Assembly: GCA_016235805.1 (NCBI GenBank)
Contig: JACRIY010000001.1
Span: 1 to 64,000 of the forward strand
DNA from: Rhodocyclales bacterium
Lineage (GTDB): Bacteria > Pseudomonadota > Gammaproteobacteria > Burkholderiales > Rhodocyclaceae
Direction of reading: 5' to 3'
Length of the DNA: 64,000 nt
A program made the translations under genes and the position numbers. Below are positions 221-62,261 of the stretch, one piece after another. Every line of letters begins with the position of its first letter. Positions within the stretch are counted from its first letter, which is position 1. The notes under the pieces are model-generated. The model was given only the letters and a program-made list of their open reading frames with translations. It was not told where the DNA came from and did not search any database.

Positions 221-1618
221 CTACAGCAGTTTTCCGGGATTCATCAGGCCGCGCGGATCGAGGGCCTGCTTGACGGCGCGCATCATGTCCATTTCGAGCG
301 GGCTCTTGTAGCGCAGGATCTCGGCACGCTTGAGTTGGCCCAAACCGTGCTCGGCCGAAATCGAGCCACCCAGTTCATGCACCAGGTCATGCACCACGCG
401 ATTTACGGCGTCAGTGCGGGCGATGAAATCGGCATTGGATTCGGCATCGGCGCGGGACTGGTTGTAATGCAGGTTGCCGTCGCCGATGTGGCCGAAGCAG
501 ACGATGCGGACCGCCGGGAAGGCCGAACGCAGCGCGGCATCGGCGCGGGCGATGAACTCGGCGATGCGCGACACGGGCACCGCGATGTCGTGCTTGATCG
601 AGATGCCCTCGATCTTCTGCGCTTCGGAAACATTCTCGCGCAGGGCCCACAGCGCGGCGGTCTGCGCCTCGCTGCTGGCTACCACGGCGTCGGCGACCAG
701 GCCCGCCTCGGCGGCCTCCTCGAGCGCAGATTCCAGCATTGCCGCGAGATCCGCGCGCGCGCCGGAAAGCTCTACCAACAGCTGCCACTCGGGTTTGCCG
801 AGCAGGGGGTCACGGGCATTGGGTATGTGCCTGAGCACCAGCTCCAGCGCCGGGCGGCCGACGATCTCGAAGGCCGTTACGTTGTCTCCGGCGACATCGC
901 GCAATCGCCCGAGCAGCGCCACGGCGGCAGCCGGATCGGCGACCGCGACCCAGGCCGTGGCCTGTGCCCGAGGCCGCGGAAACAGCTTCAGCGTTGCGGC
1001 CGTGATCAAGCCCAAGGTGCCCTCGGCGCCGATGAACAGGTGCTTGAGGTCGTAGCCCGTATTGTCCTTGCGCAGGCCGCGCAGGCCGTTCCAGACGCGG
1101 CCGTCGGCCAGCACCACTTCCAGGCCCAGGGTCAGGTCGCGCGCGTTGCCGTAACGCAGCACCTGAACCCCTCCGGCATTGGTCGACAGGTTGCCGCCGA
1201 TGGTGGCGCTGCCCTCCGCCGCGAGCGACAGCGGGAACAGGCGCCCGGCCTCGCGCGCGGCTTCCTGCACGGCATGCAGCGTGCAGCCAGCCTCGACGGT
1301 GATGGAGTTGTTGTCCGGGTCAATGGCGCGAATCCGGTTAAGGCGCGTCAGCACGATCACCACTTCGTCGCCGGTCGGCGTAGCACCGCCGCACAGGCCG
1401 GTGTTGCCGCCCTGGGGAACGATGGCCACGCCAGTCTCGGCGCAGGCGCGGACCACGGCAGCGACTTCATCGGTGTTGCCCGGCAATACCACGCAGCGCG
1501 CATTACCTGTATAGCGGCCGCGCCAGTCGGTACAGAAGGGTGCGACGTCGTTCGCGTCGGTCAGTACGCGCGTTGCGCCGACGATGGCGCGCAGGCTCTC
1601 CTGAAAGTCGGCGCTCAC
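221..1618 (-). CDS. FAD-linked oxidase, GlcD / D-2-hydroxyacid dehydrogenase family
   Basis: A 465-residue flavoprotein expected to oxidise a D-2-hydroxy acid (glycolate, D-lactate or D-2-hydroxyglutarate) and pass electrons to a quinone or ETF. The PCMH-type FAD site shows [11 protein letters not shown] at residues 68-78. The C-terminal oxidase domain carries [11 protein letters not shown] from residue 376 and AEHGLGQ nearby, typical of GlcD/D2HGDH proteins. The start is GTG and overlaps the rimO stop in a GTGA tetranucleotide, so translation is probably coupled. No glcE or glcF lies nearby, so this is a single-subunit type whose exact substrate cannot be read from sequence. The start lies inside a copy of the dispersed 24-nt repeat. 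Confidence 0.88.
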
Positions 1619-1627
1619 GGCACGGCG
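1604..1627 (+). repeat. 24-nt dispersed element, copy 1
   Basis: Reads AGTCGGCG, 8 nt, ACGGCG on the plus strand. It spans the overlapping rimO stop and oxidase start on the minus strand. Confidence 0.75.
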
Positions 1628-2973
1628 ATGGTGGCGCTCAGTTGCGCATAAAGGTCATGCACGTCGCAATCGATCACGCTCACTTCGGCGAATTCGCCGA
1701 CCTCAAGGTCGTGGCCATCGGCGATATAGACCAGTCCATCGACATCCGGCGCATCGCCCTGCGAACGGGCGATGGCGCCGTCCTCGTCGATCTCGTCGAC
1801 CAGCACCTGGATGCGGCGCCCGATCATGCGCTCGAGGCGCTGGGTGGAGATGTCCTCCTGATGGCGCAGCAAGCGCGCCTTGCGTTCCTCGCGTACCTCG
1901 TCGGGCAGCGCACCGGCCAATGCGTTGGCGCTGGCGCCCTCGACCGGCGAGTAGGAAAAGGCACCGACGCGGTCGAGTTGAGCTTCGTCGAGGAAGTCGA
2001 GCAGTTCGTTGAACTCGGCCTCGGTCTCGCCCGGGAAGCCGGTGATGAAGGTGGAACGGATCGCCAGGTCCGGCACTTCGCGACGCCAGGCGGCGATGCG
2101 GTCAAGCACCTTCTCGCTCGATGCGGGACGCTTCATCAGCTTGAGTATGCGCGGGCTGGCATGCTGGAAGGGTACGTCAAGGTAGGGCAGGATCTTGCCT
2201 TCCGCCATCAGCGGGATCAGGTCATCGACGCTGGGATACGGATACACGTAATGCAGGCGCACCCAGAGGCCGAGCTCGCCCAGTTCCTTGCACAGTTCGA
2301 ACAGCCGCGTCTTGACCGGGCGGCCGCCGTGGAAGCCGGTGCGGTACTTGACGTCGACACCATAGGCGCTGGTGTCCTGCGAGATCACGAGCAGTTCCTT
2401 GACCCCGGCCGCGGCCAGCACCTCGGCTTCGTGCAGCACGTCGCCGATCGGCCGCGACACGAGGTCGCCGCGCAGCGAGGGAATGATGCAGAAGCTGCAG
2501 CGGTGGTTGCAGCCTTCGGAAATCTTCAGGTAGGCGTAGTGGTCCGGCGTCAGGCGTATGCCCTGCGGCGGCACCAGGTCAATGAAGGGATCGTGCAGCG
2601 GGGGCAGGTGCCGATGCACCGCCTCCATGACTTCCTGTGTGGCATGCGGCCCGGTGACCGCCAGCACCTTCGGATGCACGCTCTTGACGATGTCGTTGCC
2701 GGCGGCGTCCTTCTTGGCGCCGAGGCAACCGGTGACGATCACCTTGCCGTTTTCCGCCAGCGCCTCGCCGATGGCGTCGAGCGATTCCTCGACCGCGGCG
2801 TCGATGAAGCCGCAGGTATTCACCACCACGAGGTCGGCACCGTCATAGCTGCCGGAAATCGCGTAGCCCTCGGCGCGCAGCCGGGTCAGAATCTGTTCGG
2901 CGTCGGAGGCCGCCTTGGGGCAGCCGAGCGAGACAAAGCCGACCGTGGGCGCGCGGGCCTTGCGCTTTGTCAC
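1615..2973 (-). CDS. rimO: Ribosomal protein S12 methylthiotransferase RimO
   Basis: Radical-SAM enzyme that methylthiolates the conserved aspartate of ribosomal protein S12. The N-terminal UPF0004 domain has [19 protein letters not shown] and TGCLGA (three cluster cysteines). The radical-SAM motif CNHRCSFC sits near residue 155, and a TRAM-like tail ends the protein. The ORF track begins far upstream inside phaR. The family length (about 440 aa) and the start of homology instead point to the GTG at 2973 (452 aa), whose G is the last base of the phaR stop (TAGTG). It is tightly coupled to phaR upstream and to the FAD oxidase downstream. Confidence 0.95.
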
Positions 2974-3524: not shown

Positions 3525-3572
3525 TTCTCTCCCCTCCGGTAATTGCATTTTAAAACTTTGGTGCTAAAACCC

Positions 3573-3597: not shown

Positions 3598-3620
3598 AAG
3601 CCTGCCATGCTTCGGCAGTA

Positions 3621-7381: not shown

Positions 7382-8107
7382 TTATTCCAGCCAGACCAGG
7401 CTGGCCATGCGCCCGGTGACGCCGTCGCGCCGGTAGGAAAAAAAACGGGTCGCATCGCTCGCGGCGCAAGAGTCGGCGCTGGCGATACGGCGAATTCCCA
7501 GCGCCGCCAGCCGTTGCCGCGCCAAAAGAGCGATGTCGCATAGCCATTTGCCGCCCGGCGCGGCGATGAAGGCCGCCGCCGCCGCCGCATCGACCGCCAG
7601 GAAGCACTCGCGCACCTCGCCGCCGACCTCGAAGGCCCGCGGCCCGATGGCGGGGCCGAGCCAGGCCATGAGGCGCTCGCCGGGCAGCGCCATGGCGCCC
7701 ACCGTCGCTTCGACCACGCCCGCCGCCAGGCCGCGCCAGCCGGCATGGGCGACGCCGACCACGGTCGCCTCGTCATCGCACAGCAGCACCGGCAGGCAAT
7801 CGGCGACCAGCACGGCGCAGACCACGCCGCGCTCGCGGGTGAAGCTGGCATCGGCTTCCGTGCCGGGCGCCGCCTGCGCCGCATCGACGCAGCGCGTGCC
7901 ATGCACCTGCGTCAGCCACAGCGGATCGGAGGGCAGTTCGCGACGCAACAACGCGCGGTTGCCGGCCACCGCCAGCGGGTCGTCACCGACATGGTCGCCG
8001 AGGTTGAAGCCCTGCCATGGCGCTGCGCTTACGCCCCCCGCGCGCGTGGTCGACAGCGCGCGCACGCCGCGCGGCGCCGGCCAGTCGGGAAAAATGAACT
8101 CAGTCAC
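7382..8107 (-). CDS. pgeF: Peptidoglycan editing factor PgeF (YfiH/laccase-domain family)
   Basis: Cytoplasmic metal-dependent enzyme of the YfiH family (multicopper polyphenol oxidase fold). In E. coli it removes wrongly incorporated amino acids from UDP-MurNAc precursors. 241 aa. Metal-site residues are visible in TQVHGT, VADCLP and AHAGWRG. The start is GTG, overlapping the rluD stop in a GTGA tetranucleotide, so the two are translationally coupled. Near the C-terminus the peptide RRIASADS is encoded by a copy of the 24-nt dispersed repeat in a region of low family conservation. Confidence 0.93.
   Translation of the reverse strand: MTEFIFPDWPAPRGVRALSTTRAGGVSAAPWQGFNLGDHVGDDPLAVAGNRALLRRELPSDPLWLTQVHGTRCVDAAQAAPGTEADASFTRERGVVCAVLVADCLPVLLCDDEATVVGVAHAGWRGLAAGVVEATVGAMALPGERLMAWLGPAIGPRAFEVGGEVRECFLAVDAAAAAAFIAAPGGKWLCDIALLARQRLAALGIRRIASADSCAASDATRFFSYRRDGVTGRMASLVWLE
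7469..7492 (+). repeat. 24-nt dispersed element, copy 2
   Basis: Lies inside pgeF; plus-strand orientation, antisense to the gene. Confidence 0.75.
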
Positions 8108-9012
8108 GGCGCCGGGTCACGACGCAAGTCGTCCAGCAAAACCGCGAAATCTTCCGGCAGCGGCGCTTCCCAGGCCATCTCCGCGCCGCCGTCCGGGTGA
8201 CGCAAGGCGAGCCGCCAGGCATGCAGCGCCTGGCGCGGAAAGGCGTCGAGCCGCGCATCGCCGCACTTGTTGCCGCGATACACGGTGTCGCCGGCCAGCG
8301 GATGCTTGATCGAGGCGAGATGGACGCGGATCTGGTGCGTGCGTCCGGTTTCCAGCCGGCATTCGAGCAGGGTGGCGCGGCCGAAGCGCTCCAGCACCGA
8401 GTAGTGCGTGCGCGCCTCCTTGCCGCCGGCACGCACGATGGCCATCTTGGTGCGGTGGATCGCATGCCGCCCGAGCGGTGCATCGACGATGCCGTCGCGC
8501 TCGACCTTGCCCAGCGCCAGGGCAAGGTAGTGCCGGCTGACGGTGCGCGCCTGCAACTGGCGCACCAGGTCGGTCTGCGCGGTCAGCGTCTTCGCCACCA
8601 CCAGCAGGCCGCTGGTGTCCTTGTCGAGGCGATGCACGATGCCGGCGCGCGGTATCCCGGCCAGTTGCGGGGCGTGGTGCAGCAGCGCGTTCATCAGCGT
8701 GCCCGAGGCGTTGCCGTTGCCCGGATGCACTACCAGCCCGGCGGGCTTGTCGATGACGATCAGTTGCTCGTCCTCGAACACCACCTTGAGCGGAATGTCC
8801 TCGGCGGATTCGGCAAGAGTCGGCGCTGGCGGTACGGCGTCGCCGATGTCGAATTCGATGCGTTCGCCGCCGTACACCTTGCGCTTGCCTTCCGCAGTGC
8901 CGCCGTCGAGGCGGATCAGGCCATCCTTGAGCCAACCCTGCAGGCGGCTGCGCGAGTGTTCGGGAAACAGCTTGGCCAGCGTCGCGTCGAGCCGCCAGCC
9001 GGCGCACTCCAT
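8104..9012 (-). CDS. rluD: 23S rRNA pseudouridine synthase RluD
   Basis: Makes pseudouridines 1911/1915/1917 in helix 69 of 23S rRNA. An N-terminal S4 domain (GWRLDATLAKLFPEHSRSRLQ) precedes the RsuA/RluA catalytic domain with AGIVHRLDKDTSG, the Asp near residue 130 being catalytic. GRTHQIRVHL follows. The track's 374-aa version runs back into bamD and is not credible. I use the ATG at 9012 (302 aa); a TTG at 9039 and the ATG at 9096, which overlaps the bamD start, are alternatives and the choice is uncertain. It is coupled to pgeF and divergent from bamD, a common betaproteobacterial arrangement. Confidence 0.92.
   Translation of the reverse strand: MECAGWRLDATLAKLFPEHSRSRLQGWLKDGLIRLDGGTAEGKRKVYGGERIEFDIGDAVPPAPTLAESAEDIPLKVVFEDEQLIVIDKPAGLVVHPGNGNASGTLMNALLHHAPQLAGIPRAGIVHRLDKDTSGLLVVAKTLTAQTDLVRQLQARTVSRHYLALALGKVERDGIVDAPLGRHAIHRTKMAIVRAGGKEARTHYSVLERFGRATLLECRLETGRTHQIRVHLASIKHPLAGDTVYRGNKCGDARLDAFPRQALHAWRLALRHPDGGAEMAWEAPLPEDFAVLLDDLRRDPAP
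8816..8839 (+). repeat. 24-nt dispersed element, copy 3
   Basis: Inside rluD, in the linker after the S4 domain (encodes VPPAPTLAES on the minus strand). Confidence 0.75.
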
Positions 9013-12008: not shown

Positions 12009-12032
12009 AAAGTCGGCGCTGGCGACACGGCG
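12009..12032 (+). repeat. 24-nt dispersed element, copy 4
   Basis: Intergenic, 8 nt after the thioesterase stop codon. It equals the majority sequence of the family. Confidence 0.8.
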
Positions 12033-12092
12033 TCGATGGCTGTCAAGCGCGCCGCCCAAGCGCCGCTTCGGTAAGCACGGCGGAATCAATGA

Positions 12093-12118
12093 AAAACGGG
12101 AGCCGCAGCCCCCGTTTT
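12093..12118 (-). terminator. Terminator of PEP-CTERM gene 1
   Basis: Inverted repeat AAAACGGGAGC/GCCCCCGTTTT (one mismatch) around CGCA. The outer A/T runs make it usable in both directions, so it may also end the thioesterase transcript. It is nearly identical to the terminator of PEP-CTERM gene 2. Confidence 0.8.
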
Positions 12119-12175
12119 CGCGTCGGATCACTTCGCCTCAGGCAAATTGCTGCAGCTTCCTGCGACGTGCCGCAA
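12093..12175 (-). repeat. PEP-CTERM 3' cassette, copy 1
   Basis: 83 nt covering the last codons of the sorting tail, the stop codon, the spacer and the terminator. It aligns without gaps to 15905-15987 with 78 of 83 positions identical. Confidence 0.85.
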
Positions 12176-12683
12176 TACCAACCAGACCAAGACCCGCCAG
12201 CAACATCGCGTAGGTTTCGGGTTCGGGGACGGGAGCCAGGTTGCCTTGTGCCGTGAGCGTCAACTCGTAGCTGCCGGTGGCAGCGTCCATCGGCTCGCCC
12301 CATCCATACACGTCGACCTGATAGTTGCGACCTACGACAAGACCGGTAACGGTGCGGGTGCTGAAGTAACTGGTGCCCCAATCCGGCGTCTCGTAAGCGG
12401 CCCACAAGCCCACATTGCCGAAGGTCTCGGTGTCGCGCAGGAAGAATTCGAGCTGGGAATAGCCCTCGCCGGGTTGCGGCATGCCCTGGAAATCCACCGT
12501 GACCCAGTCACCGTTGGCAATGGTGAAATTGAAGGTGTCCCGGATCGCAGCCTGTCCGGGTACTTCCGGGTAAGACACCAGTCGCGATGCGACGGGGTTG
12601 ACCACGCCCATGTTGAAAGTGTTGGCCCAGACCGGACTGGCAAGCGACGCCAGGACAGCCACCAGCGCAATGATCTGTTTCAT
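12138..12683 (-). CDS. PEP-CTERM sorting domain protein 1
   Basis: Predicted secreted protein of 181 aa, processed and anchored or released by an exosortase. It has an N-terminal signal peptide (MKQIIALVAVLASLASPVWA) and a FxF-type adhesin-like beta domain. The C-terminal sorting signal is VPEPETYAMLLAGLGLVGIAARRRK: PEP motif, hydrophobic helix, Arg cluster. The track ORF starts almost 300 nt too early; AAGGAG before the ATG at 12683 decides the start. The mature function is unknown. No exosortase or EPS genes are in the window, so the processing enzyme must be encoded elsewhere. Confidence 0.9.
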   Translation of the reverse strand: MKQIIALVAVLASLASPVWANTFNMGVVNPVASRLVSYPEVPGQAAIRDTFNFTIANGDWVTVDFQGMPQPGEGYSQLEFFLRDTETFGNVGLWAAYETPDWGTSYFSTRTVTGLVVGRNYQVDVYGWGEPMDAATGSYELTLTAQGNLAPVPEPETYAMLLAGLGLVGIAARRRKLQQFA

Positions 12684-13257: not shown

Positions 13258-15843
13258 ATGCTCATTAATCTGGTCAACAACATCGCCTTCCTTATCGCCT
13301 TGATCGCGACGGGGCAAATCGTCCTTTCGCGTTTTCGCAAGGACACGCCGGGTCGCCAGGTGATGCTGGGCCTGCTTTTTGGCAGCGTAGCCCTGCTTGG
13401 CATGATCAATCCCGTCACCTTCTCGCCCGGCCTGATATTCGACGGCCGGTCGATCGTGCTGTCCGTGGCCGGCGTCGTCGGTGGCGGGGTCGCGGCGGCA
13501 ATTGCCGCGGGCATTGCGGGTGTCTATCGCTACCAGATGGGCGGCATCGGGGCAACGGTGGGTGTCCTGGTCGTCCTGCAGTCCGCCCTGCTTGGCGTAT
13601 TGGCACGGCAGTGGCTGCTTCGCCGCTGGAGCCCCCCGCAACCGATGCACTATCTTGCGCTGGGCGTCGTGGTGCAACTGGCGCAACTGGCTGCATTCAC
13701 GCAAATCCCCAATCGGGCCGCCTACGCGTTCATCGAGCAGGCCTGGTGGGTGCTCATGCTGTTCTACCCGCTTGCCACCATGGTGCTGTGCCTGATCTTC
13801 CGCAACTACGAGCAGCAGCTGATCGACCAGGAGTCCCTGCATGCGACCCAGGATGCGGTAATCGCCGCAGAGCGCGCCAGCATGAAGCGCTTTCATGCCT
13901 ACTTCGACCATTCCATCGTCGGTCTTGCCATCACCAGCCTGGAAAAGGGCTGGATCGAGGTGAACGACGCACTGTGCGCGACTCTGGGTTACACGCGGGA
14001 CGAACTGACCCGCATGACCTGGGCCGAGCTGACCTACCCGGACGATCTGGCGCCTGACCTGGCGCAGTTCAACCGCATGCTGGCCGGGGAAATCGAGAGC
14101 TATGCCATGGACAAGCGCTTCATCCACAAGGACGGCCACCTGGTGAATACGCGTCTTGCGGTCAGCCATGTGCGCACGCCGGATGGCAGCCTCGATTACG
14201 TGGTGGCGATGGTGGAGGACATCAGCGAGCGCAAGCAGGCGGAACTGGCCCTGTTGCGGGAGCAGCAGTTCTCCGCCGAGATCATCAATGCCCTTCCCGG
14301 CATTTTCTACATGTTCGATGGCAACGGACGCTTCCTGCGCTGGAACCGCCATTTCCGGGACGTCTCCGGCTACACCGACAGCGAACTGGCGACGATGCGT
14401 GCGCAGGACTTCTTTGCCGACGACGACCATGAGCGCATCGCCGCCGCGATGCAGCAGGTGTTCCGGGACGGACAGGCCAACATCGAAGCGATGTTCCGCG
14501 ATCGGTACGGACGGGACACGCCCTACCATTTCAGCGGTACGCAGGTGAGTCTCGATGGCAAGTCCTATTTGATCGGCGTCGGCCTCGACATCAGCGACCG
14601 CAAGGCCGCCGAAGCCGAACTCGACAAGCACCGCCACCACCTCGAGGAAATCGTCGAGTCACGTACCGCCGAACTCGCGACGGCCAAGGCAGCCGCCGAA
14701 GCCGCCAATGTCGCCAAGAGCGCCTTCCTCGCCAACATGAGCCACGAAATCCGCACGCCGATGAACGGCATCGTCGGCATGGCCAACGTCCTGCGTCGGG
14801 AAGGCGTCACCAGCAGGCAGGCACTGCGCCTCGACGCCATCGACGCCTCGGCCCGGCACCTGTTGTCGGTGATCAACGATGTCCTCGACATCTCGAAGAT
14901 AGAGGCCGGCAAGTTCACGCTGGAGGAAGCGGCGGTCGACGTCGGCGGCCTGCTGGCCAATATCGCTTCCATCCTGTCGGAGCGGGTCAAGGCCAAGGGC
15001 ATTCGCCTGCTGATCGAGGCCGAGCCCCTGCCGCCCGGGCTCGTGGGTGACCCGACGCGGCTGCAACAGGCCTTGCTCAACATCGCGACCAACGCCGTCA
15101 AATTCACCGAGCAAGGCACGGTGACCTTGCGCACCCTCAAGCAGGAAGAAACAGCCGATGCTGCGGTGTTGCGGTTCGAGGTAAGCGATACCGGCATCGG
15201 CATCGCTCCCGAGGTCATGTCGCGCCTCTTCAGCGCCTTCGAGCAGGCCGACAATTCGATGACCCGCAAGTACGGCGGCACCGGCCTCGGACTGGCGATC
15301 ACCCGCCGCCTGGTCGAACTGATGGGCGGGAAAGTCGGCGCCGACAGCACGGCGGGCGTCGGCAGCACCTTCTGGTTTACCGTGAAGCTGATGAAGGGCG
15401 GCGAGGTGGCGACTGCTCCGACGGAAGCCGTGGTCGATGCCGAAGCGCAGATACGTCAATGTTGCGCCGGCCTGCGCATCCTGGTGGTCGATGACGAGCC
15501 GGTCAACAGGGAAGTCGCACTGATGCATCTGGAGGCGGTCGATCTCGTGGCGGACACCGCGGAAGATGGCGCGCAGGCCGTCGCAATGGCCTGCAAGAGC
15601 AGCTACGTGGCCATCCTCATGGATATGCAGATGCCGAAGCTGAGCGGAATCGAGGCAACGCGGGAGATCCGCCAGATTCCCGGATACCGGGACACACCGA
15701 TCATCGCCATGACGGCCAACGCGTTCGTCGAGGACAAGGAGAAGTGCCTTGCGGCGGGTATGAGCGACTTTTTGATCAAGCCTTTCAGCCCCGATCAGTT
15801 GTTTGCGATCCTGCTGCGCGCGCTTAATCGGCGCAATTCGTAG
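13258..15843 (+). CDS. Hybrid sensor histidine kinase 1 (5TM receptor, two PAS, HisKA, HATPase, REC)
   Basis: 861-aa membrane sensor kinase. About 190 N-terminal residues form five or six transmembrane helices resembling the LytS-type 5TMR domain (the NPVTFSPGLIFDGRSIVLSVAG segment). Two PAS domains follow (around 215-330 and 340-450), then a coiled coil. HisKA has [15 protein letters not shown] with phosphoacceptor His496. The ATPase shows NAVKF, DTGIGI and GGTGLGL, and a receiver carries Asp789 in LMDMQMP. No HPt domain or cognate regulator adjoins, so it is an orphan hybrid kinase. It sits between two PEP-CTERM genes. The ATPase G2 region overlaps a copy of the 24-nt repeat. Confidence 0.92.
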   Translation: MLINLVNNIAFLIALIATGQIVLSRFRKDTPGRQVMLGLLFGSVALLGMINPVTFSPGLIFDGRSIVLSVAGVVGGGVAAAIAAGIAGVYRYQMGGIGATVGVLVVLQSALLGVLARQWLLRRWSPPQPMHYLALGVVVQLAQLAAFTQIPNRAAYAFIEQAWWVLMLFYPLATMVLCLIFRNYEQQLIDQESLHATQDAVIAAERASMKRFHAYFDHSIVGLAITSLEKGWIEVNDALCATLGYTRDELTRMTWAELTYPDDLAPDLAQFNRMLAGEIESYAMDKRFIHKDGHLVNTRLAVSHVRTPDGSLDYVVAMVEDISERKQAELALLREQQFSAEIINALPGIFYMFDGNGRFLRWNRHFRDVSGYTDSELATMRAQDFFADDDHERIAAAMQQVFRDGQANIEAMFRDRYGRDTPYHFSGTQVSLDGKSYLIGVGLDISDRKAAEAELDKHRHHLEEIVESRTAELATAKAAAEAANVAKSAFLANMSHEIRTPMNGIVGMANVLRREGVTSRQALRLDAIDASARHLLSVINDVLDISKIEAGKFTLEEAAVDVGGLLANIASILSERVKAKGIRLLIEAEPLPPGLVGDPTRLQQALLNIATNAVKFTEQGTVTLRTLKQEETADAAVLRFEVSDTGIGIAPEVMSRLFSAFEQADNSMTRKYGGTGLGLAITRRLVELMGGKVGADSTAGVGSTFWFTVKLMKGGEVATAPTEAVVDAEAQIRQCCAGLRILVVDDEPVNREVALMHLEAVDLVADTAEDGAQAVAMACKSSYVAILMDMQMPKLSGIEATREIRQIPGYRDTPIIAMTANAFVEDKEKCLAAGMSDFLIKPFSPDQLFAILLRALNRRNS
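15331..15354 (+). repeat. 24-nt dispersed element, copy 17
   Basis: Inside hybrid kinase 1, encoding KVGADSTAG in the G2 region. Because this segment is conserved in the protein family, part of the match could be coincidental. Confidence 0.55.
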
Positions 15844-15904
15844 CCGCGAGCCGGCTTGACCCGAGTCACCGCGGTCGACGTCCGCAGCAGCCATCCATGA
15901 ATGC

Positions 15905-15930
15905 AAAACGGGAGCCGCAGCTCCCGTTTT
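15905..15930 (-). terminator. Terminator of PEP-CTERM gene 2
   Basis: Perfect 11-bp stem AAAACGGGAGC/GCTCCCGTTTT with CGCA loop. It lies between the convergent hybrid kinase 1 and PEP-CTERM gene 2, so it can serve both. Confidence 0.88.
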
Positions 15931-15987
15931 CGCGTCGGATCGCTTCGCCTCAGGCAGATTGCTGATGCTTCCTGCGACGTGCCGCAA
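15905..15987 (-). repeat. PEP-CTERM 3' cassette, copy 2
   Basis: Second copy of the 83-nt tail, stop and terminator cassette (see 12093-12175). Confidence 0.85.
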
Positions 15988-16666
15988 GGCCCACCAGACC
16001 CAAACCAGCCAGCATCATGGCGTAGGTTTCGGGTTCGGGAACCGGAGCGGTTTGCTGATCCAGGGTCAGCGAAACCTCGCGCCAGCCCACCCCTCTCGTG
16101 GCGGGACCGCCATCCCACGAGCTGACTCCCAGGAGGAAACTGCCGGTGTAACTGCTCGTCGGCACTCCCAGGGCGGCGGCATACCCGGCGTGCAGAGTGC
16201 TCACGGTGAAGCTGGCGCTGATGTCGAAGTCTGAGCCGATGCACATGGGGTTGCACTCGATGGCGCTGCGGTCGCGAACCGTGGTCGCCCCGAGAACGCC
16301 GGTAAAGATGGTCGTACCGGCCGCGATGTCAATTACGAAATCGTGGTCTATGTCGATGCCGCCGCTGAACCCATTGGCCACCACCATGGATACCGTGCCG
16401 CCGGGTGCGAATGTCCAGCCATCGGCAGTGGCGCCAGTCTGAAACGAAAAATTGAAATTGTTGCCCCAGAAATTCGAGCTATCGAAGAGGTCGAGGGGCG
16501 TCCCCGTCTGCAGGCTTGCGGCTCCGCCGGCGTAACTCACGTTGCCCGGATAACCTCCGGGAGAGTTGCCGTACTTGATGGTCTGGGCAGCTGCCATGCC
16601 GGTCGCGGAGGCGATGGCAAGCGGCAGGGCGAAGCGGGCGATTCTGGCGACGAAACTGTGGATCAT
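15950..16666 (-). CDS. PEP-CTERM sorting domain protein 2
   Basis: 238-aa predicted exported protein. A signal peptide (residues 1-28, ending MAAAQ) is followed by a Gly/Asn/Ser-rich beta-structured domain. The C-terminal signal is VPEPETYAMMLAGLGLVGLAARRRK. Two cysteines (IECNPMCIG) could form a disulfide. The start at 16666 is supported by GGGAGA. The mature part is not related to PEP-CTERM protein 1, yet the 3' end and terminator are nearly identical in DNA, suggesting exchange of the tail as a module. Function unknown; exosortase substrate by family knowledge. Confidence 0.9.
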   Translation of the reverse strand: MIHSFVARIARFALPLAIASATGMAAAQTIKYGNSPGGYPGNVSYAGGAASLQTGTPLDLFDSSNFWGNNFNFSFQTGATADGWTFAPGGTVSMVVANGFSGGIDIDHDFVIDIAAGTTIFTGVLGATTVRDRSAIECNPMCIGSDFDISASFTVSTLHAGYAAALGVPTSSYTGSFLLGVSSWDGGPATRGVGWREVSLTLDQQTAPVPEPETYAMMLAGLGLVGLAARRRKHQQSA

Positions 16667-18330: not shown

Positions 18331-18991
18331 GGGGAAAGGCCTGTGACAAAAGCGCCGGGCGGCGCACGTCGAGCAGGATGTCGTGGCGCGCCGGCGGCCC
18401 GCGCCGCTTGAGCAGTTGCACGCGCAGGCGGCCTTCCGCCGCGTGCAGTTGCAGGCGCAGCGGCGCCGGCGAGGCCGGCGCGGCGAAGCGCGCCGGGCGC
18501 AGGAGGAAAGCCGCGCCTCCGCCCTCGCCGGCGGCGACCTGCAGGCGGCGCAGGCTGTTGGCCGGCAGGCCGTCGCGCAACATCGCGTCCGGCCACAGCA
18601 GCGTGGCCGCCACGCCGCCGCAGCGCAGCGCCTCGACGCCGGCCCACAGGGCGTCGCGCGGGCGGCGCGGAAACACCAGGCGCAAGCAGTCAAGGCGCAC
18701 CCCGGCGGCGGCCCAGGCCGGCGCATGCGCGGCATGCGGCGGCGCCACCAGCAACACGGCGCGGCCGGCGGCGGTCAGCGTCGCCAGCGCGGGCAGCAGC
18801 AGGCCGAGTTCGCCGATGCCTTCATGTTCGGCCAGCAGTTCCGTCAGCGCCCCGCGCGGCCAGCCGCCACCGGGCAGCTCGGCATCGAGGAGGGGGAAGC
18901 CGCTGCCAAGAGTCGGCGCCGGCGCCACGGCGAAGGCATCGCCGCGACGGATGTCGCCACGCTGCAGCGCCCCTGCGAGGGCGGGATTCAT
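18263..18991 (-). CDS. imuA: SOS mutagenesis protein ImuA
   Basis: RecA/SulA-related partner in the ImuABC translesion system. 242 aa from the ATG at 18991. FPLLDAELPGGGWPRGALTELLAEHEGIGELGLLLPAL is the diagnostic N-terminal region; the rest resembles a RecA core lacking a full Walker A. The longer track start at 19102 adds residues without family similarity. It lies 156 nt after lexA and overlaps imuB. I see no LexA box in the lexA-imuA gap, so it is probably read from the lexA promoter. A 24-nt repeat copy encodes VAPAPTLGS near the N-terminus. Confidence 0.9.
   Translation of the reverse strand: MNPALAGALQRGDIRRGDAFAVAPAPTLGSGFPLLDAELPGGGWPRGALTELLAEHEGIGELGLLLPALATLTAAGRAVLLVAPPHAAHAPAWAAAGVRLDCLRLVFPRRPRDALWAGVEALRCGGVAATLLWPDAMLRDGLPANSLRRLQVAAGEGGGAAFLLRPARFAAPASPAPLRLQLHAAEGRLRVQLLKRRGPPARHDILLDVRRPALLSQAFPHALAGAALPAASGSRRRSRAAA
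18909..18932 (+). repeat. 24-nt dispersed element, copy 5
   Basis: In the N-terminal part of imuA, antisense to the gene. Confidence 0.75.
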
Positions 18992-19147
18992 GGCGATCGG
19001 CGTCAGAACTTGTGAAGAAATCGTCGCGAGCAGGCCGCAGCGGGGTGCGGCCGGAGCACAGCTACCGGAATGCACGCGGTTGTGCATGAGGATAGCGAGC
19101 ACCGCCCAAGCCCCGATCCGGCATGCGCAGTAGATTTATTCACAAGT

Positions 19148-19753
19148 TCAAAGTGCGTGGCCGCCGCGGATGAGGCCAACGGCCACGCCTTCGATCTCCA
19201 GCGGCTCCTTGCGCGTATTGATCAGAATGGGCGCGAAATCCCGGTTTTCGGCGATCAGCTCGACCATGGTGCCGCGCCGCTTGTAGCGCTTGACGGTGAC
19301 CTCGTCGCCGAGCCGGGCGACGACGATCTGGCCGTTGCTGGCTTCGGTGGTGCGATGCACGGCGAGCAGGTCGCCGTCCAGTATCCCGGCCTCGATCATC
19401 GACAGACCGCGCACGCGCAGCAGGTAATCGGCATGCGGCTGGAACAGCGCCGGATCGATGCGGAAATTGCCGAGGCGGTTTTCAATGGCCAGCAGCGGGC
19501 TGCCGGCGGCGACCGTGCCGATCAGCGGCAGGCCGAGCTGCTCGACCAGGCGGATGCCGCGCGCGGAGCCGGGTTCCAGCGTGATCACGCCTTTCTTCGC
19601 CAGCGCCCGCAGGTGGTCCTCGGCGGCATTGGCCGAGGCGAAGCCGAAGGCGCCGGCGATCTCTGCGCGCGTCGGCGGCATGCTGAAGACTTCCATGTTG
19701 CTGCGGATGAAATCGAGGATTTCCTGCTGGCGGGGGGTCAGATCGTGGGCCAT
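19148..19753 (-). CDS. lexA: SOS repressor LexA
   Basis: 201-aa repressor that self-cleaves when stimulated by RecA filaments. The N-terminal winged helix begins [17 protein letters not shown]. The cleavage site VAAGSP gives Ala83-Gly84. The catalytic dyad is Ser118 ([14 protein letters not shown]) and Lys155 ([10 protein letters not shown]). The ATG at 19753 gives the family length; the track start adds 23 residues that overlap the operator. It is the first gene of lexA-imuA-imuB and is autoregulated by the SOS box at 19769-19784. Confidence 0.97.
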
Positions 19754-19784: not shown

Positions 19785-19866
19785 TACATGAAACCGGGGC
19801 CGCGGTAAACAGCGCGATGCATTCGGCGAACCGCACGCGGGGGCTTTGTAGGATAATCCGCGCCTG

Positions 19867-20040
19867 GTCGTCGGGAGAGAGTGACGCGTTTCCCGCCTGC
19901 ACCGCCGAAGGCGCAACCCCCAGGAACCGCTCAGGCAAAAGGACCGACGACGCACGGAAAATCTGGAGAGCGGCAGCTCACGGCAGCATCGTGAAGCCTG
20001 CCCGCCGACGGAGTAAATCTCTCAGGCGCCAAGGACAGAT
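19867..20040 (+). ncRNA. Tandem glycine riboswitch
   Basis: Two consecutive glycine aptamers in the gcvT leader. Aptamer 1 (19867-19951) is closed by P1 GTCGTCGG/CCGACGAC and contains GGGAGAG, CACCGCCGAAGG and CTCAGGCAAAAGGACC. Aptamer 2 (19961-20040) is closed by ATCTG/CAGAT and contains GGAGAGCGGC, GCCCGCCGACGGAG and CTCTCAGGCGCCAAGGACAG. These are the conserved signatures of the family. A GACGGGGCCCCGTC palindrome follows at 20049-20062 before the gcvT Shine-Dalgarno and may belong to the expression platform. Confidence 0.96.
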
Positions 20041-20095
20041 GGGGACGTGACGGGGCCCCGTCGCGCCTCTTGCCGCATCTTTTCCGAGGACCGCC

Positions 20096-21582: not shown

Positions 21583-24440
<2,858 letters not shown>

Positions 24441-24974: not shown

Positions 24975-24979
24975 CGCTA

Positions 24980-25094
24980 ATGGCACCGAGCGCCACCCGC
25001 CGAGGACGAAATACGCGAAAGGCGAATTGAAGGCCCCCCACCCCCATCCCCGCCCCAGGGCGGGGCTACCATTCCGCTCGCTTCGCTCGGTCAT
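24980..25094 (+). repeat. Intergenic repeat family II, copy A
   Basis: Begins ATGGCACCGAGCGCCA and continues GCGAATTGAAGGCCC. It contains a GC hairpin (CCCGCCCC/GGGCGGGG) and ends with CTCGCTTCGCTCG. It lies in the leader of the GST gene. Confidence 0.8.
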
Positions 25095-41326: not shown

Positions 41327-41350
41327 AAAGTCGGCGCTGACGACACGGCG
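41327..41350 (+). repeat. 24-nt dispersed element, copy 12
   Basis: Intergenic, 26 nt before the dusC start codon. Confidence 0.8.
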
Positions 41351-42372: not shown

Positions 42373-42396
42373 AAAGTCGGCGCTGGCGCGACGGCG
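42373..42396 (+). repeat. 24-nt dispersed element, copy 13
   Basis: Intergenic, 3 nt after the dusC stop codon. Confidence 0.78.
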
Positions 42397-42473: not shown

Positions 42474-43199
42474 TCAGACGGCCGGTTTCTGCTTGCGGCG
42501 CCGGGCCACAACGCTTAGCAGCCCCAGGCCGGCAAGCATCATGGCGTAGGTTTCGGGTTCGGGGACGGGCGCCGCCGCAGCCAGCGTAACCTCAACGTTG
42601 TCGAGCGCCATCCCGGCATTGCCGGTGATCGTACTGGCGAAGCTGATCCGGGTCGAGCTTTCCGTCGCGATGAAATCAAAGCCGCGCGATTCCCAGCCCA
42701 TGTTGGTTGCAGACTTCCCGGTCACATCGAAGGTGTAGTGATTGGAAACGATCGCCGCATTCGGCAGCGTCACGCCCGCCACCTTGGCGTCCATGTGTTT
42801 CGTCACGGGTGCCCCCGCATAGTTGCCGGCGATGTCGAACGAGACGTGATACAGCGCTCCGACTGCCGTGGCGAAGACCTGAGAGATCCCGCCGCCAAGC
42901 GAGCCGTTCATATCCACGCTGGCATCATTCCTGAGCGTGTCCGCGTCGCTGCCATCCCATAGCGTGTTGATGATGTCCACCTGGCCGAAATCGATCTTCC
43001 AGTAGGCGAAGTGTCCCGTCGCGCTCGGCGAGTATGCCGGGGTATACGTCTGCCAGGGCACTCCGCTATACCCGGCCTCGAAACTGCCGTTCTGCAGCAG
43101 GTTGGCGGCATGGACGGGTGTCGTCGCGCCGAGCGCGAAACCCAACGCCGCGCAGGCGGACACGGACTTGCGAAACAGACCCCCAATTGAAATTTTCAT
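42474..43199 (-). CDS. PEP-CTERM protein 3, choice-of-anchor C type
   Basis: 241 aa. A signal peptide (residues 1-32, ending TPVHAA) precedes a choice-of-anchor C / DUF642-like beta-sandwich domain: NLLQNGSFEAG, VDIINTLWDGSDADTLRNDASVDMNGSLGGGISQVF and YHVSFDIAGN are its signatures. The C-terminal exosortase signal is VPEPETYAMMLAGLGLLSVVARRRK. The ATG at 43199 is preceded by GGGGAGAG; the track starts 83 codons upstream in non-coding DNA. Probable surface or matrix protein. It shares only the PEP motif and an upstream motif with the other two PEP-CTERM genes. Confidence 0.92.
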   Translation of the reverse strand: MKISIGGLFRKSVSACAALGFALGATTPVHAANLLQNGSFEAGYSGVPWQTYTPAYSPSATGHFAYWKIDFGQVDIINTLWDGSDADTLRNDASVDMNGSLGGGISQVFATAVGALYHVSFDIAGNYAGAPVTKHMDAKVAGVTLPNAAIVSNHYTFDVTGKSATNMGWESRGFDFIATESSTRISFASTITGNAGMALDNVEVTLAAAAPVPEPETYAMMLAGLGLLSVVARRRKQKPAV

Positions 43200-48009: not shown

Positions 48010-49524
48010 TCAGGCCTCCTGCGCCACGCGCTTGCGGCGCTTCGGCGCCGGTGCGGAAGTCGGCGCCGACGCCACGGCGTTCTTGAGTTCGGCATGAGCC
48101 GCCATGAAATCCTCCGCCAGTTCGGACGCCTCCGGCACGGCGTTCTTCGCCACGACGAAGCCGAAGCAGAGGCTTCCCGAATAGCTCAGCAGCGTGATGT
48201 TGATGCCGACGCCATGCTCGACGATGGACAGTGGCCAGTAGCCGGTCATGCGCAGGCCATCGACATAGAGCGGCACCGGCGGCCCCGGCACGTTCGAGAT
48301 CAGCACGTTGGCCAGTATCGGCAGCTTGTCCACCACGCTGCTGCGGCCGTAGAGCGCGGCCAGGGCGCCGAGCAGCCAGGGCACGCCGAGCAGCGGGATG
48401 TCGGTCGGGATCACCGACCTGGCCTGGCGCGCCACCGCCTTGGTGGCGCCCGCCGAATCGCGGATCGCCGCCAGGCGCTTCACCGGATCGGCGATGTTGG
48501 ACGCCAGGTTCACCAGGCTCAGCGTGGCCTGGGTGCGCATCTCGGTGTTGCCCTGCTCGCGCAATGAAATCGGCATCGAGGCGATCAGCGGCTTCCTCGG
48601 CACGCTGCCGTGGCGCTTGAGGTAGCGTCGCAGCGCGCCGCTGCACAGCGTCATCACCACGTCATTGACCGTGGCCTCGGCGGCGGCGGCGATGGCCTTG
48701 AGCTCGGCGCGCGGGATCGAGGCCGTGGCGAAGCCGCGCTCGCGCGTGATGGCGACGTTGAACACGGTGCGCGGGCCGAAGGAGGCGCTGCGCTTCAGTT
48801 CGCCGAAGCTGGCTGCATCGGCGGCATGGGCGGCGCCGCGCGCCTTGGCGGCCGAGCCCTTCACGATCCCGGTCAGCGTGCGGACCAAGCCAGGCAGTTC
48901 GCGCACCAGCTTGACGTACTGCGCGGCATCGTGGCGGAAGGCCGCGGCCGCCAGCGCCAGCGTACCCGGCTGCTCGGCCGGCGCGGCCTTCTTGCGTGGG
49001 TTGCGCTTGGCCGCCGGCAGCGGTTCGGGCGAGGCGCTGAACAAGGCGCCGGCCAGCGCGACGCCGGCCTGGCCGTCGAGCATGGCGTGATGCACCTTGA
49101 AGTAGTAGGCCTTCTCGCCACTGGCGAGGCCTTCGAGAACGTAAAGCATCCACAGCGGGCGCGAACGGTCGAGCAGTTCGGCGTGCAGATCGGCCACCGC
49201 GGCTTCGAGTTGCGCCCAGGTACCGGGCTTGGGCAGCCTGACGCGACGGACGTGGTGGTCGAAATCGATCGGATCCTGCACCCAGACCGGATTGGCCAGT
49301 TGCAGGGGCAAGGCCGCGAGGCGGCGCTGCAGCACCGGCACCATGCGGCTTTGCATCATGTGCCGCACCGACTTGTAGAAATCGCCTTGGTAACCCGGCG
49401 GCGTCTCGAACAGGTGCAGCGAGCCGACATGCATCGGCGTCGCTTCGGTTTCAAGATTGAGGAAGGCGCCATCGACCCCGCTCAGGGTTTCGATCCCGGC
49501 ATCCTTGCTGCGAACTCGGCCCAT
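48010..49524 (-). CDS. Wax ester synthase/diacylglycerol acyltransferase A
   Basis: 504 aa. Makes wax esters or triacylglycerol from acyl-CoA and an alcohol or diacylglycerol. The catalytic motif is intact, HHAMLDG (145-151). Others are RPLWMLYVLEG, TVNDVVMTLCSGALRRYL and SNVPGPPVPLYVDGLRM. The ATG at 49524, with AGGGAGAG upstream, is preferred; the track adds 32 residues. First gene of A-hydrolase-B-hydrolase-MFS. A copy of the 24-nt repeat encodes NAVASAPTSAP at the C-terminus. Divergent from a TetR gene with a perfect operator palindrome between. Confidence 0.92.
   Translation of the reverse strand: MGRVRSKDAGIETLSGVDGAFLNLETEATPMHVGSLHLFETPPGYQGDFYKSVRHMMQSRMVPVLQRRLAALPLQLANPVWVQDPIDFDHHVRRVRLPKPGTWAQLEAAVADLHAELLDRSRPLWMLYVLEGLASGEKAYYFKVHHAMLDGQAGVALAGALFSASPEPLPAAKRNPRKKAAPAEQPGTLALAAAAFRHDAAQYVKLVRELPGLVRTLTGIVKGSAAKARGAAHAADAASFGELKRSASFGPRTVFNVAITRERGFATASIPRAELKAIAAAAEATVNDVVMTLCSGALRRYLKRHGSVPRKPLIASMPISLREQGNTEMRTQATLSLVNLASNIADPVKRLAAIRDSAGATKAVARQARSVIPTDIPLLGVPWLLGALAALYGRSSVVDKLPILANVLISNVPGPPVPLYVDGLRMTGYWPLSIVEHGVGINITLLSYSGSLCFGFVVAKNAVPEASELAEDFMAAHAELKNAVASAPTSAPAPKRRKRVAQEA
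48056..48079 (+). repeat. 24-nt dispersed element, copy 14
   Basis: In the low-complexity C-terminal tail of WS/DGAT-A, antisense to the gene. Confidence 0.72.
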
Positions 49525-49590
49525 CTCTCTCCCTAAGTCGGCCAAACCGAAACCAAACGGGGAAGACTTCGAACCTCGATGCTTGGCCGG

Positions 49591-49663
49591 AAAGGCGAAT
49601 TGAAGGCCCGCCCCTCCCATCCTCCCCTCGCGGGGAGGCTACTGATTGGCTCGCTTCGCTCGA
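49591..49663 (+). repeat. Intergenic repeat family II, copy D (truncated)
   Basis: Starts AAAGGCGAATTGAAGGCCCG and lacks the ATGGCACCGAGCG part. It keeps a GC hairpin (CCTCCCCTCG/CGGGGAGG) and ends with CTCGCTTCGCTCG. Confidence 0.75.
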
Positions 49664-51367: not shown

Positions 51368-51409
51368 TGCGATGCATGAACGCAACTGCGCATATCGGCT
51401 AGCGCCCAT

Positions 51410-51524
51410 GGCACCGAGCGCCAGCCGTTGAGGATGAAACAAGGGAAAGGCGAATTGAAGGCCCCCCACCCCCATCCCCGCCCCAGGGCGGGGCTACTGA
51501 TTGGCTCGCTGCGCTCGACCATGA
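51410..51524 (+). repeat. Intergenic repeat family II, copy B
   Basis: Full-length: ATGGCACCGAGCGCCA, GCGAATTGAAGGCCCC, CCCGCCCC/GGGCGGGG hairpin, GGCTCGCTGCGCTCG. Positioned in the leader of the quinone oxidoreductase gene. Confidence 0.82.
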
Positions 51525-51560: not shown

Positions 51561-52541
51561 ATGAAAGCACTCGTCTGCGAAGCCTATGGTCCGATCGACA
51601 CCCTCGTCGTCAAGGACATCCCCTCTCCCGTCCCAGGTCCGAAGCAGGTGCTGATCGAAGTAAAGGCCGCGGCCGTCAACTTCCCCGATGCGCTGATGGT
51701 GCAGGGCCTCTACCAGGTCAAGCCGCCGTTGCCCTTCACTCCCGGCGCCGAGATCGCCGGCATCGTCACCGCCGTCGGCGCCGAGGCAAAGCATTTCAAG
51801 CCCGGCGACAGGGTGATCGCGCTGACCAGCACCGGCGGCTTCGCCGAGGAATGCCTGGCCGACGTGCATCGCGTGATGCCGCTGCCGAAGACCATGGATT
51901 TTGACTCCGGCGCGGCGCTGGTGCTGACCTATTGCACCTCGCTGCACGCGCTGAAAGATTGCGGCCACCTGCAGCCCGGCGAGACCCTGGTGGTGCTGGG
52001 CGCCGCGGGCGGCGTCGGCATCTCGGCGATCGAGATCGGCAAGGCCATGGGCGCGCGCGTGATCGCTGCCGCATCCTCCGAGGACAAGCTGGACCTGTGC
52101 CGAAAAGTCGGCGCTGACGAGACGGTGAATTACAGCACCGAAAACCTCAAGGACCGCATCAACGAACTGACCGCGGGCAAGGGCGCAGACGTCGTGTATG
52201 ACCCGGTCGGCGGCCCCTACACCGAGCCGGCGGTACGCGCGCTGGCCTGGCGCGGGCGGCTCCTGATCATCGGCTTCGCCGCCGGCGAGATCCCGAAGAT
52301 TCCGCTCAACCTCGCGCTGCTCAAGGAGCGCTCGCTGGTCGGCGTATATTGGGGCGATTCGACCAAGCATGATCCGGGCGGCCACCTCGCCAACCTGCAC
52401 CAGCTCAACGATTGGTTCGCCGCCGGTAAGATTCGTCCCGTAGTGAGCGAACGCTTTTCGCTCGCCGCCGCCGGAGATGCCATCGCGAAAATCGCCAACC
52501 GCCAGGTCAAGGGCAAGATCGTCGTCAATCCAACTGCCTAA
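51561..52541 (+). CDS. NADPH:quinone oxidoreductase family protein (zinc-independent MDR)
   Basis: 326 aa medium-chain dehydrogenase/reductase. It begins MKALVCEAYGPIDTLVVKDIPSP. It has PFTPGAEIAGIVTAVG, the cofactor motif GAAGGVG and an acryloyl-CoA reductase/QOR-like core; zinc ligands are not evident. AAGGA precedes the ATG at 51561; the track starts 12 codons early. The KVGADETVNY segment, standard in this family, overlaps a 24-nt repeat copy. Possible roles are enoyl-CoA or quinone reduction. Flanked on both sides by family II repeats. Confidence 0.9.
   Translation: MKALVCEAYGPIDTLVVKDIPSPVPGPKQVLIEVKAAAVNFPDALMVQGLYQVKPPLPFTPGAEIAGIVTAVGAEAKHFKPGDRVIALTSTGGFAEECLADVHRVMPLPKTMDFDSGAALVLTYCTSLHALKDCGHLQPGETLVVLGAAGGVGISAIEIGKAMGARVIAAASSEDKLDLCRKVGADETVNYSTENLKDRINELTAGKGADVVYDPVGGPYTEPAVRALAWRGRLLIIGFAAGEIPKIPLNLALLKERSLVGVYWGDSTKHDPGGHLANLHQLNDWFAAGKIRPVVSERFSLAAAGDAIAKIANRQVKGKIVVNPTA
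52104..52127 (+). repeat. 24-nt dispersed element, copy 15
   Basis: Inside the quinone oxidoreductase gene. The encoded KVGADET is family-conserved, so chance similarity cannot be excluded. Confidence 0.5.
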
Positions 52542-52546
52542 CTCGC

Positions 52547-52655
52547 ATGGCACCGAGCGCCACCTGCGGCAGAGCAAACACGTAAAGGGCAAATTGAAGG
52601 CCCGCCCCCCCATCCCCCCTCACGGGGGGCTACTAATCGGCTCGCTTTGCTCGAC
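52547..52655 (+). repeat. Intergenic repeat family II, copy C
   Basis: ATGGCACCGAGCGCCA, CAAATTGAAGGCCCG, CCCCCTCACGGGGGG hairpin, CGGCTCGCTTTGCTCG. Positioned in the leader of the aldehyde dehydrogenase gene. Confidence 0.8.
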
Positions 52656-60199: not shown

Positions 60200-60200
60200 C

Positions 60201-60638: not shown

Positions 60639-60722
60639 GGATTTGCCGCCAAATGTGGAAGGCCGAATTCTACCGGCAAGCCGCCTGCGGACTACTGCCT
60701 GACCGCGCAGCGCCGGCTGGCC

Positions 60723-61454
60723 TCATCCGTCCTCCGCCCGCTCGCGCTGCGCGACCGACACCAGTGCCTTGGCCCTCGCCTTGCGGTCGTTCCAGACCGG
60801 AGTGATCAGGCGCATGCCGTGCTGGCGCTTGATCGCCTGCACGACATACACGGCACCGGCGATTGGCCACCAGCGGTCGCCCGCGGTATCCATGAAACGA
60901 AAGCGGCGCAGCCACTTCTCCTGGGTCACGGCCGGCGCGTAGCAGCCGAAGGCACCGGCCTGCATCTCCAGGCCGAGCAGGGAGAACCAGTCCTTCAGGC
61001 GCGGCACGCTGAGATAAGCGCCGCGCCAGGGCGGCAGCGCCTGGCGCCGCGACAACTTGCGCCGCGCGCCCCACAGGCTGAAGGGGTTAAAGCCGGTGAC
61101 GATCACGTGGCCTTCCGGCACCAGCACGCGTTCGACCTCGCGCAGCACCTGGTGCGGGTTCGGATCGAACTCCAGCGTGTGCGGCATCACCACGAGGTCG
61201 ATGCTGTTGTTGGCGAAGGGCAGGAAATGCAGGTCGGAGCGCACCTCGGACACGCCGTCGTAGCGCCCGTCATCACAGCGGAAGCGCAGCGGCATGCGGT
61301 TGGCGCGCAGGAAATCGTGGCCGGGCAGCGACAACTGCACGGCGTTGAAGCCGAAGATGTCGGCCACCAGCAGGTCGTGCTTCTGCTGCTCCCAATCGAG
61401 CACATACTGACCTGCCGGCGTTTTCAGCCAGTCCTCGAATCCCTGAATTGACAT
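60723..61454 (-). CDS. SAM-dependent methyltransferase
   Basis: 243 aa class I methyltransferase of the type regularly found between gloB and rnhA. It begins MSIQGFEDWLKTPAGQYVLDWEQQKHDLLVADIFGFNAVQLSLP. The core is DLHFLPFANNSIDLVVMPHTLEFDPNPHQVLREVERVLVPEGHVIVTGFNPFSLWG. The glycine-rich motif I is weakly formed. Substrate unknown. It is divergent from gloB with 27 nt between start codons. Confidence 0.88.
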   Translation of the reverse strand: MSIQGFEDWLKTPAGQYVLDWEQQKHDLLVADIFGFNAVQLSLPGHDFLRANRMPLRFRCDDGRYDGVSEVRSDLHFLPFANNSIDLVVMPHTLEFDPNPHQVLREVERVLVPEGHVIVTGFNPFSLWGARRKLSRRQALPPWRGAYLSVPRLKDWFSLLGLEMQAGAFGCYAPAVTQEKWLRRFRFMDTAGDRWWPIAGAVYVVQAIKRQHGMRLITPVWNDRKARAKALVSVAQRERAEDG

Positions 61455-61481
61455 TGCGCCCTAATCGGTGAAAATCGCTTG

Positions 61482-62261
61482 ATGATTGAAATACTCGCCC
61501 TGCCCGCCTTCGACGACAACTACATCTGGCTGCTGCGCGCCAACGGCCAGGTCGCGGTTGTCGATCCCGGCGATGCGGCGCCGGTGATCGCGCACCTGGC
61601 GCAAAGCGGCGACCGTCTCTGCGCCATCCTCGCCACCCACCACCACGGCGACCACGTCGGTGGCGTCGCGGACCTGCTGGCACGCAATCCCGTGCCCGTG
61701 TTCGGCCCGGCGCTGGAAAACATCGCCGGGGTAACGAATTCGCTGGCCGGCGGCGAGCATATCGAACTGCCCGAAATCGGCGTCGCGCTTGAGGTCATCG
61801 CCGTGCCCGGCCATACCCGCGGCCACCTCGCCTATTATGGCCCAAACATCGGAACGGCCGGCGCGCTGTTCTGCGGCGACACCCTGTTCGGCGCCGGCTG
61901 CGGGCGCCTGTTCGAGGGCACGCCGGCACAGATGCAAGCCTCGCTGGCATCGCTCGCCGTGCTGCCGGCGCCGACTCTTGTGTACTGTGCCCACGAATAC
62001 ACCCAGAGCAATCTGCGCTTCGCCGCCGCCGTCGAACCCGGCAGCGTGGCCGTACAGCGCCGCATCGAGGCCGTGGCGCGCGAACGCGCCGCCGGACGTG
62101 CGACGGTGCCGACCCGCATCGGGATCGAACTCGACACCAATCCCTTCCTGCGCTGGGACGAGCCCGCCGTGCGCGCCGCCGCCGCGTCACGCCTCGGCCA
62201 CGCGCCGGCCGATCCGATCGAAACCTTCACCGCGATCCGCGAGTGGAAAAACCGTTTCTAA
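61482..62261 (+). CDS. gloB: Hydroxyacylglutathione hydrolase (glyoxalase II)
   Basis: 259 aa metallo-beta-lactamase-fold enzyme that hydrolyses S-D-lactoylglutathione in methylglyoxal detoxification. The metal motif is THHHGDHVGG. Further ligands are in VPGHTRGHLAYY, FCGDTLFGAGCGRLFEGTPAQM and YCAHEYTQSNLRFA, and a C-terminal domain follows. ATG at 61482. A reversed 24-nt repeat encodes AVLPAPTL just before YCAHEYT. Confidence 0.96.
   Translation: MIEILALPAFDDNYIWLLRANGQVAVVDPGDAAPVIAHLAQSGDRLCAILATHHHGDHVGGVADLLARNPVPVFGPALENIAGVTNSLAGGEHIELPEIGVALEVIAVPGHTRGHLAYYGPNIGTAGALFCGDTLFGAGCGRLFEGTPAQMQASLASLAVLPAPTLVYCAHEYTQSNLRFAAAVEPGSVAVQRRIEAVARERAAGRATVPTRIGIELDTNPFLRWDEPAVRAAAASRLGHAPADPIETFTAIREWKNRF
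61955..61978 (-). repeat. 24-nt dispersed element, copy 16
   Basis: Reverse orientation inside gloB. Confidence 0.7.

Follow-up and report, generated by a model that had tools for sequence, protein, structure and literature searches.

A long dispersed word with lineage-specific dialects in Sulfuritalea and related bacteria, probably of the DNA uptake type

Sequence-specific DNA uptake is known from two bacterial families only, with words that are 9-12 nt long (PMC12616744). In Neisseria such words occur once per 0.4-1.1 kb (PMC7371117); uptake words evolve through point mutation in place (PMC1939737), they sit at permissive sites of the core genome (PMC2397512) and their dialects are lineage-specific (PMC3630211). 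Both described types, the DNA uptake sequence (DUS) and the uptake signal sequence (USS), have been explained by biased transfer and recombination (PMC1939737, PMC2397512). Here we describe a word that is scattered over the first 64 kb (66% G+C, hereafter the window) of contig JACRIY010000001.1 of a Rhodocyclales bacterium, a part of a 3.83-Mb, 80%-complete genome (G000). This word, 24-28 letters long, occurs in hundreds of dispersed copies per genome in Sulfuritalea and in some of its soil and freshwater relatives. Judging from its genomic behaviour, it is most likely a third, independent uptake-type word.

A first-pass annotation of the window had listed 17 copies of a 24-nt element at a density far above chance. 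The element is present at all 17 places, with the single correction that the register of the copy listed at 24690 begins one base earlier, and it ends in ACGGCG in all but two of them, exactly as had been claimed; an eighteenth, weak copy was absent from that list. At three or fewer mismatches these 18 window sites compare with a mean of 0.06 and a largest count of 2 in 100 dinucleotide-preserving shuffles. The whole genome has 171 exact matches of the strict form and 465 sites at one mismatch or fewer, while the reversed-pattern control gives 0. The element also survives shuffling of synonymous codons, which the same annotation had proposed as a refutation: 5 exact sites were observed in the window genes vs 0.00 in the shuffles, and 79 vs 0.40 in the genes of G002, a complete member of the genus. 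Since the 465 sites are divided into 247 forward and 218 reverse, the skew towards the plus strand in the window (14 of 18 copies) is local. Hundreds of copies far over chance, on both strands and all around the chromosome, are a property of uptake words.

The anatomy of the word was examined in G002, of which 2.0 Mb were sampled at even steps. The logo built from 348 sites with two or fewer mismatches is RARAGTCGGCGCTGGCGRNACGGCGAYY, a non-palindromic motif of about 28 nt outside of which the flanks of these sites show no conservation; the element as first described thus stands, with an extent slightly longer than the 24 nt assigned to it. Among 10-mers, AGTCGGCGCT is the most over-represented in the sample, with 286 occurrences vs 16.9 expected. 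Spacing between sites is near random, the strands are about equal in each part of the chromosome, and the sites show no association with the GC-skew switch, no replichore polarity and no regional clustering on this 2-Mb map. Replichore polarity, an early suspicion, was rejected in this way, and the evidence also speaks against the polar form of the nucleoid, segregation or recombination signal that had been among the first candidates; the orientation bias with replication that characterizes Chi and the FtsK-orienting polar sequences (KOPS) was not found. Copies lie inside genes and between them, as initially noted. According to gene calls from a simple codon-usage script, in which gene ends are approximate, 241 of the 348 sites (69%) fall within genes and 104 between them, though the non-coding share is only 12.6%, which is a 2.4-fold intergenic enrichment. 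Enrichment is highest in convergent gaps, i.e. at 3' ends, and divergent gaps are poor in sites, which is the opposite of what an operator would show. Intragenic copies occupy several reading frames, the sense frame K-V-G-A-G-D-T-A being the commonest.

The origin of the copies can be followed by comparison with G016, a member of the genus without the word, to which 29 sites of word-rich genomes could be aligned. Net length change was zero at 18 of these and scattered at the remainder, with no class of 24-30 nt insertions among the 29. The gcvP site of the window (22756) is present with two or fewer mismatches, N positions being free, in 11 other genomes of the genus, and its counterpart in G016, G021 and G025 is degenerate and free of indels. 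These two observations indicate that the element was built mostly by substitution and was not inserted; like uptake words, it arises in place. Inserted units facing empty sites, the hallmark of repetitive extragenic palindromic (REP) sequences and miniature inverted-repeat transposable elements (MITEs), were not found. Where it is abundant, the word is kept: at orthologous places it is retained with two or fewer mismatches in 88% of pairs for G002, 80% for loci of other word-rich members of the genus and 100% for the window, pairs which are partly non-independent as some sites recur across several genomes. The flanks in these pairs share just 79-84% identity, and random 24-mers persist in 27-41% of cases. 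Retention is 0/27 in G016, with flanks 81% identical, and 0/17 in outgroups. The word is therefore conserved over its flanks and placed, as uptake words are, where the core genome is permissive, and the force maintaining it belongs to the lineage and not to the individual site. In the nucleotide tree of gcvT-gcvP, G016 is nested among word-rich species, so its lack of the word would be a loss. The protein tree leaves the placement of G016 open and has G021 and G025 at the base of the genus; the two trees thus disagree on whether these three genomes are nested or basal.

In a survey of the family, several genera were rich in the exact word and most had next to none; counts outside the family were likewise close to zero. 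Low exact counts in G072, G132 and G027 could be taken for loss, an explanation that was rejected because a relaxed search shows dialects. The relaxed pattern gave 401 sites vs 7 in the control for G132 (2 exact), 240 vs 3 for G072 (1 exact) and 128 vs 3 for G067 (0 exact), and G076 was also far over its reversed control. Among the matches listed, 72 of the first 76 sites of G027 with a single mismatch show the dialect AGTTGGCG and 47 of 49 sites of G132 show ACGGCA; a large class in G076 reads AGTCAGCG, and a TTGGTG form occurs in G067. No divergent dialect was detected in 290 kb of G016. A single base altered over hundreds of scattered copies points to concerted evolution towards a trans-acting reader, and neither insertion, mutation bias nor codon usage produces such dialects, which are lineage-specific and genome-wide as those of uptake words are. 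A separate pattern was seen in word-poor genomes, where the small number of exact copies is concentrated on single contigs (C104 and C557 of G109, C148 of G183, C50 of G108 and C3 of G350); these may be DNA from word-rich donors or contamination of the genome bins.

The word is not confined to chromosomes. At least 120 stretches of viral contigs in IMG/VR carry it, the reversed-type control pattern had no matches in viral contigs, and none of the 135 exact viral copies lay in DNA similar to that of the host genomes sampled. Genes for terminase, integrase and tail fibre J were found on sampled word-bearing contigs. The sites lie on both strands, in and between genes, with positions and frames like the chromosomal ones. 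One phage contig (L169, 883-2239) has five copies spaced by about 316 nt in a region where no genes were called, and the ACGGCA form is seen in four of the five. Prophages accumulate uptake words, which has been taken to indicate that they co-evolve with the host (PMC7371117).

Abundance, origin by substitution and dialects all strongly favour the uptake-like word that had been proposed among the first candidates, and we consider it probable that uptake of DNA in natural transformation is biased by the word. To our knowledge, biased transfer with recombination is the sole established process by which a word can reach hundreds of copies at permissive sites with no insertion involved. The genomes contain parts of the machinery of competence (ComEC, type IV pilus) expected of bacteria that use uptake words: a ComEC match over the family cut-off was found in 29 of 31 genomes of the genus, and each genome has 11-19 prepilin matches. 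It is on these grounds that the word is held to bias uptake; from them we infer both the step at which the bias acts and the pilin nature of the reader. DNA with RARAGTCGGCGCTGGCGRNACGGCGAYY would be preferred by some part of the cell that recognises DNA, most likely a minor pilin of the type IV pilus in the competence machinery. Fragments of dead relatives that bear the word would be taken up and recombined preferentially, alleles nearer to the word would spread, and the word would accumulate through substitution in existing sequence at permissive places, genic and intergenic, on both strands. If the specificity of the reader drifts, all copies of the lineage would follow and dialects would form, and where the bias is lost, as possibly in G016, words would decay.

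Several observations weigh against this explanation. The word has about double the length of known uptake words, and its density of about one per 4-6 kb is several times below that of Neisseria. The share of sites with zero net length change is only the above 18 of 29, 59% of the G016 retention alignments are gapped within the site, and indels accompany some of the gains in linkers and intergenic DNA, for example those at 25808 and 26485. An intact ComEC is also present in word-less G016. The search for a receptor among FimT/GspH pilins and all G002 prepilins identified none, and FimT-type pilins, occurring both with and without the word, do not discriminate. The best candidate, a stand-alone prepilin (G002:3148900-3149622), shows 67-71% identity across most word-rich members of the genus and 31-55% in G016, G021, G025 and the dialect genome G027. 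Its link to the word fails in other genera (42% in word-rich G061, 46% in word-rich G219, 57% in word-free G034) and also in G003, and it is therefore a lead only as the reader, one that tracks the word just within the genus. The presence of the word in phages is readily explained by uptake just for temperate ones. Finally, the literature searched contains no uptake experiment on these bacteria; within the same literature the first impression that the element is not a described one holds, and no link of Sulfuritalea to a DNA uptake sequence was found by this search, which did not reach most subscription papers and bioRxiv preprints.

Other explanations must also be weighed. It is rather unlikely that a long word common to bacteria and phages is read by some protein as a tag of self DNA, serving not uptake but chromosome organisation, repair or self-recognition, and evolves by drive with dialects. 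A binding site of a chromosome-organising, repair or self-recognition protein that serves any replicon, phages included, is in our estimate unlikely as well: even chromosomal spread, occurrence in phages and lineage-wide dialects, which imply a sequence-specific reader, are all in accordance with it, but the word has no polarity or regional bias, unlike Chi, KOPS, parS and matS, and its positions turn over between species. Selection acting site by site would hardly build a 28-nt non-palindrome at hundreds of permissive intragenic places, and the proteins of this kind that we know of read short words or tens of sites. A packaging word, by which a gene transfer agent or a transducing phage would favour host DNA carrying it while recombination drives its accumulation, is quite unlikely. 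Phages do carry the word, and any transfer bias with recombination would yield an identical genomic pattern, but the sites on phage contigs are dispersed, genic and intergenic and on both strands, with no single site near terminase, and we know of no precedent of a packaging word with hundreds of intragenic copies. It is very improbable that the word is a mobile or REP/MITE-like repeat, or the remnants of one, spread through insertion. The copies are similar and dispersed, and length changes do occur at some intergenic and linker sites (again 25808 and 26485); against this, net length change is zero at most sites, insertion sizes have no peak, neither target sites nor flanks are conserved, many copies are intragenic, and dialect changes are common to hundreds of scattered copies of a lineage, and this evidence also speaks against the REP-like remnant suggested at first. 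Chance, base composition or common codon usage, to which the high G+C content and the common codons of the KVGAGDTA frame might point, has a negligible probability, being refuted by both the dinucleotide and the synonymous-codon shuffles and disagreeing with copies on both strands, in several frames and between genes and with the absence of the word from most genera of the family.

The copies in the window are listed below; the genes that bear them encode mostly housekeeping-type enzymes.

Copies of the dispersed word in the 64-kb window, with strand and genomic context
Feature	Position	Strand	Context
Copy, 1 mismatch	1604-1627	+	Spans end of radical-SAM/TRAM gene and start of glcD-like gene
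Exact copy	7469-7492	+	Antisense within laccase-domain (Cu-oxidase_4) gene
Exact copy	8816-8839	+	Antisense within pseudouridine synthase gene
Exact copy	12009-12032	+	Intergenic, convergent gene pair
Copy, 1 mismatch	15331-15354	+	Hybrid sensor kinase gene, sense frame KVGADSTA
Exact copy	18909-18932	+	Within called gene, uncharacterised, without Pfam match
Copy, 1 mismatch	20902-20925	+	Within gcvT
Exact copy	22756-22779	+	gcvP, sense frame KVGAGDTA
Copy, 2 mismatches	24689-24712	+	Within ACT-domain gene
Copy, 2 mismatches	25808-25831	-	Close to 3' end of glutathione S-transferase gene; present in some species, in others absent with length change
Copy, 1 mismatch	26485-26508	-	Peptidase U32 gene, stretch of variable length
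Weak copy, 3 mismatches	38573-38596	-	Hybrid sensor kinase gene; may be chance
Exact copy	39512-39535	+	U32/DUF3656 peptidase gene, sense frame KVGAGGTA
Exact copy	41327-41350	+	Intergenic, upstream of dihydrouridine synthase gene
Exact copy	42373-42396	+	Intergenic, convergent gene pair
Copy, 1 mismatch	48056-48079	+	Antisense, wax ester synthase gene
Copy, 1 mismatch	52104-52127	+	Zinc-type alcohol dehydrogenase gene, sense frame KVGADETV
Copy, 1 mismatch	61955-61978	-	Antisense, hydroxyacylglutathione hydrolase-like gene

Some other sequences of the window also deserve mention. An Rfam search returned tRNA and glycine riboswitch matches only, none of them related to the element; a tandem glycine riboswitch is located at 19862-20048, upstream of gcvT-gcvP. 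A second dispersed repeat family, about 75-150 nt long, mostly intergenic and G+C-rich (GAATTGAAGGCCC...CCCCGCCCC), has copies at 24969-25094, 49589-49663, 51397-51522 and 52536-52627, and the repeat at 19003-19149 is a putative member only. This family has many copies in other genomes of the genus, at 84-95% identity, and no Rfam match at the gathering threshold. Another over-represented word family, REP-like, was noticed in the G002 sample (ATTACGCAGAT / AATCTGCGAAAT / TCCGCAGATT). Three genes for PEP-CTERM proteins share closely similar 3' ends (12085-12236, 15897-16048 and 42490-42572), which suggests gene conversion or a recent duplication of the sorting tail.

If the word does bias uptake, it would be a third independent case of sequence-specific uptake, with a longer word, several dialects, one word-less species and phage carriers, in which drive and selection for 'safe sex' would become testable by comparison. 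It would also open a route to a new class of DNA-reading pilin, and it predicts natural competence in these environmental bacteria, which could be transformed by adding the word to DNA.

Among described systems, Chi and KOPS are likewise non-palindromic genomic words over-represented in genes, but they are 7-8 nt long and strand-biased with replication, whereas the present word is long and unbiased. REP sequences, MITEs and the Rickettsia palindromic elements are short dispersed repeats too, some of them intragenic, yet these are inserted units, mostly palindromic or intergenic, while the word is non-palindromic and derived mainly by substitution. With the USS of Pasteurellaceae it shares genome-wide over-representation, point mutation in place and the same genomic behaviour, although its sequence is unrelated to the USS of these gammaproteobacteria (AAGTGCGGT or ACAAGCGGT, with a 9-nt core). 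A dialect of the 10-12 nt DUS of Neisseriaceae was considered and rejected on motif length and core; the word does contain CTG, the inner core of DUS, but its T reaches only 80% and is not fixed. The likeness to DUS, which is read by the ComP receptor and has dialects of its own, lies in genomic behaviour alone, the sequence being unrelated, the length about 24-28 vs 10-12 nt and the density several-fold lower. In that behaviour the two agree closely: hundreds of scattered copies on both strands, genic and intergenic, with intergenic enrichment, permissive sites, origin without insertion and lineage-specific dialects, and the Neisseriaceae are likewise betaproteobacteria. The kinship of this longer and sparser word with uptake words would thus be one of resemblance in behaviour, not of sequence.

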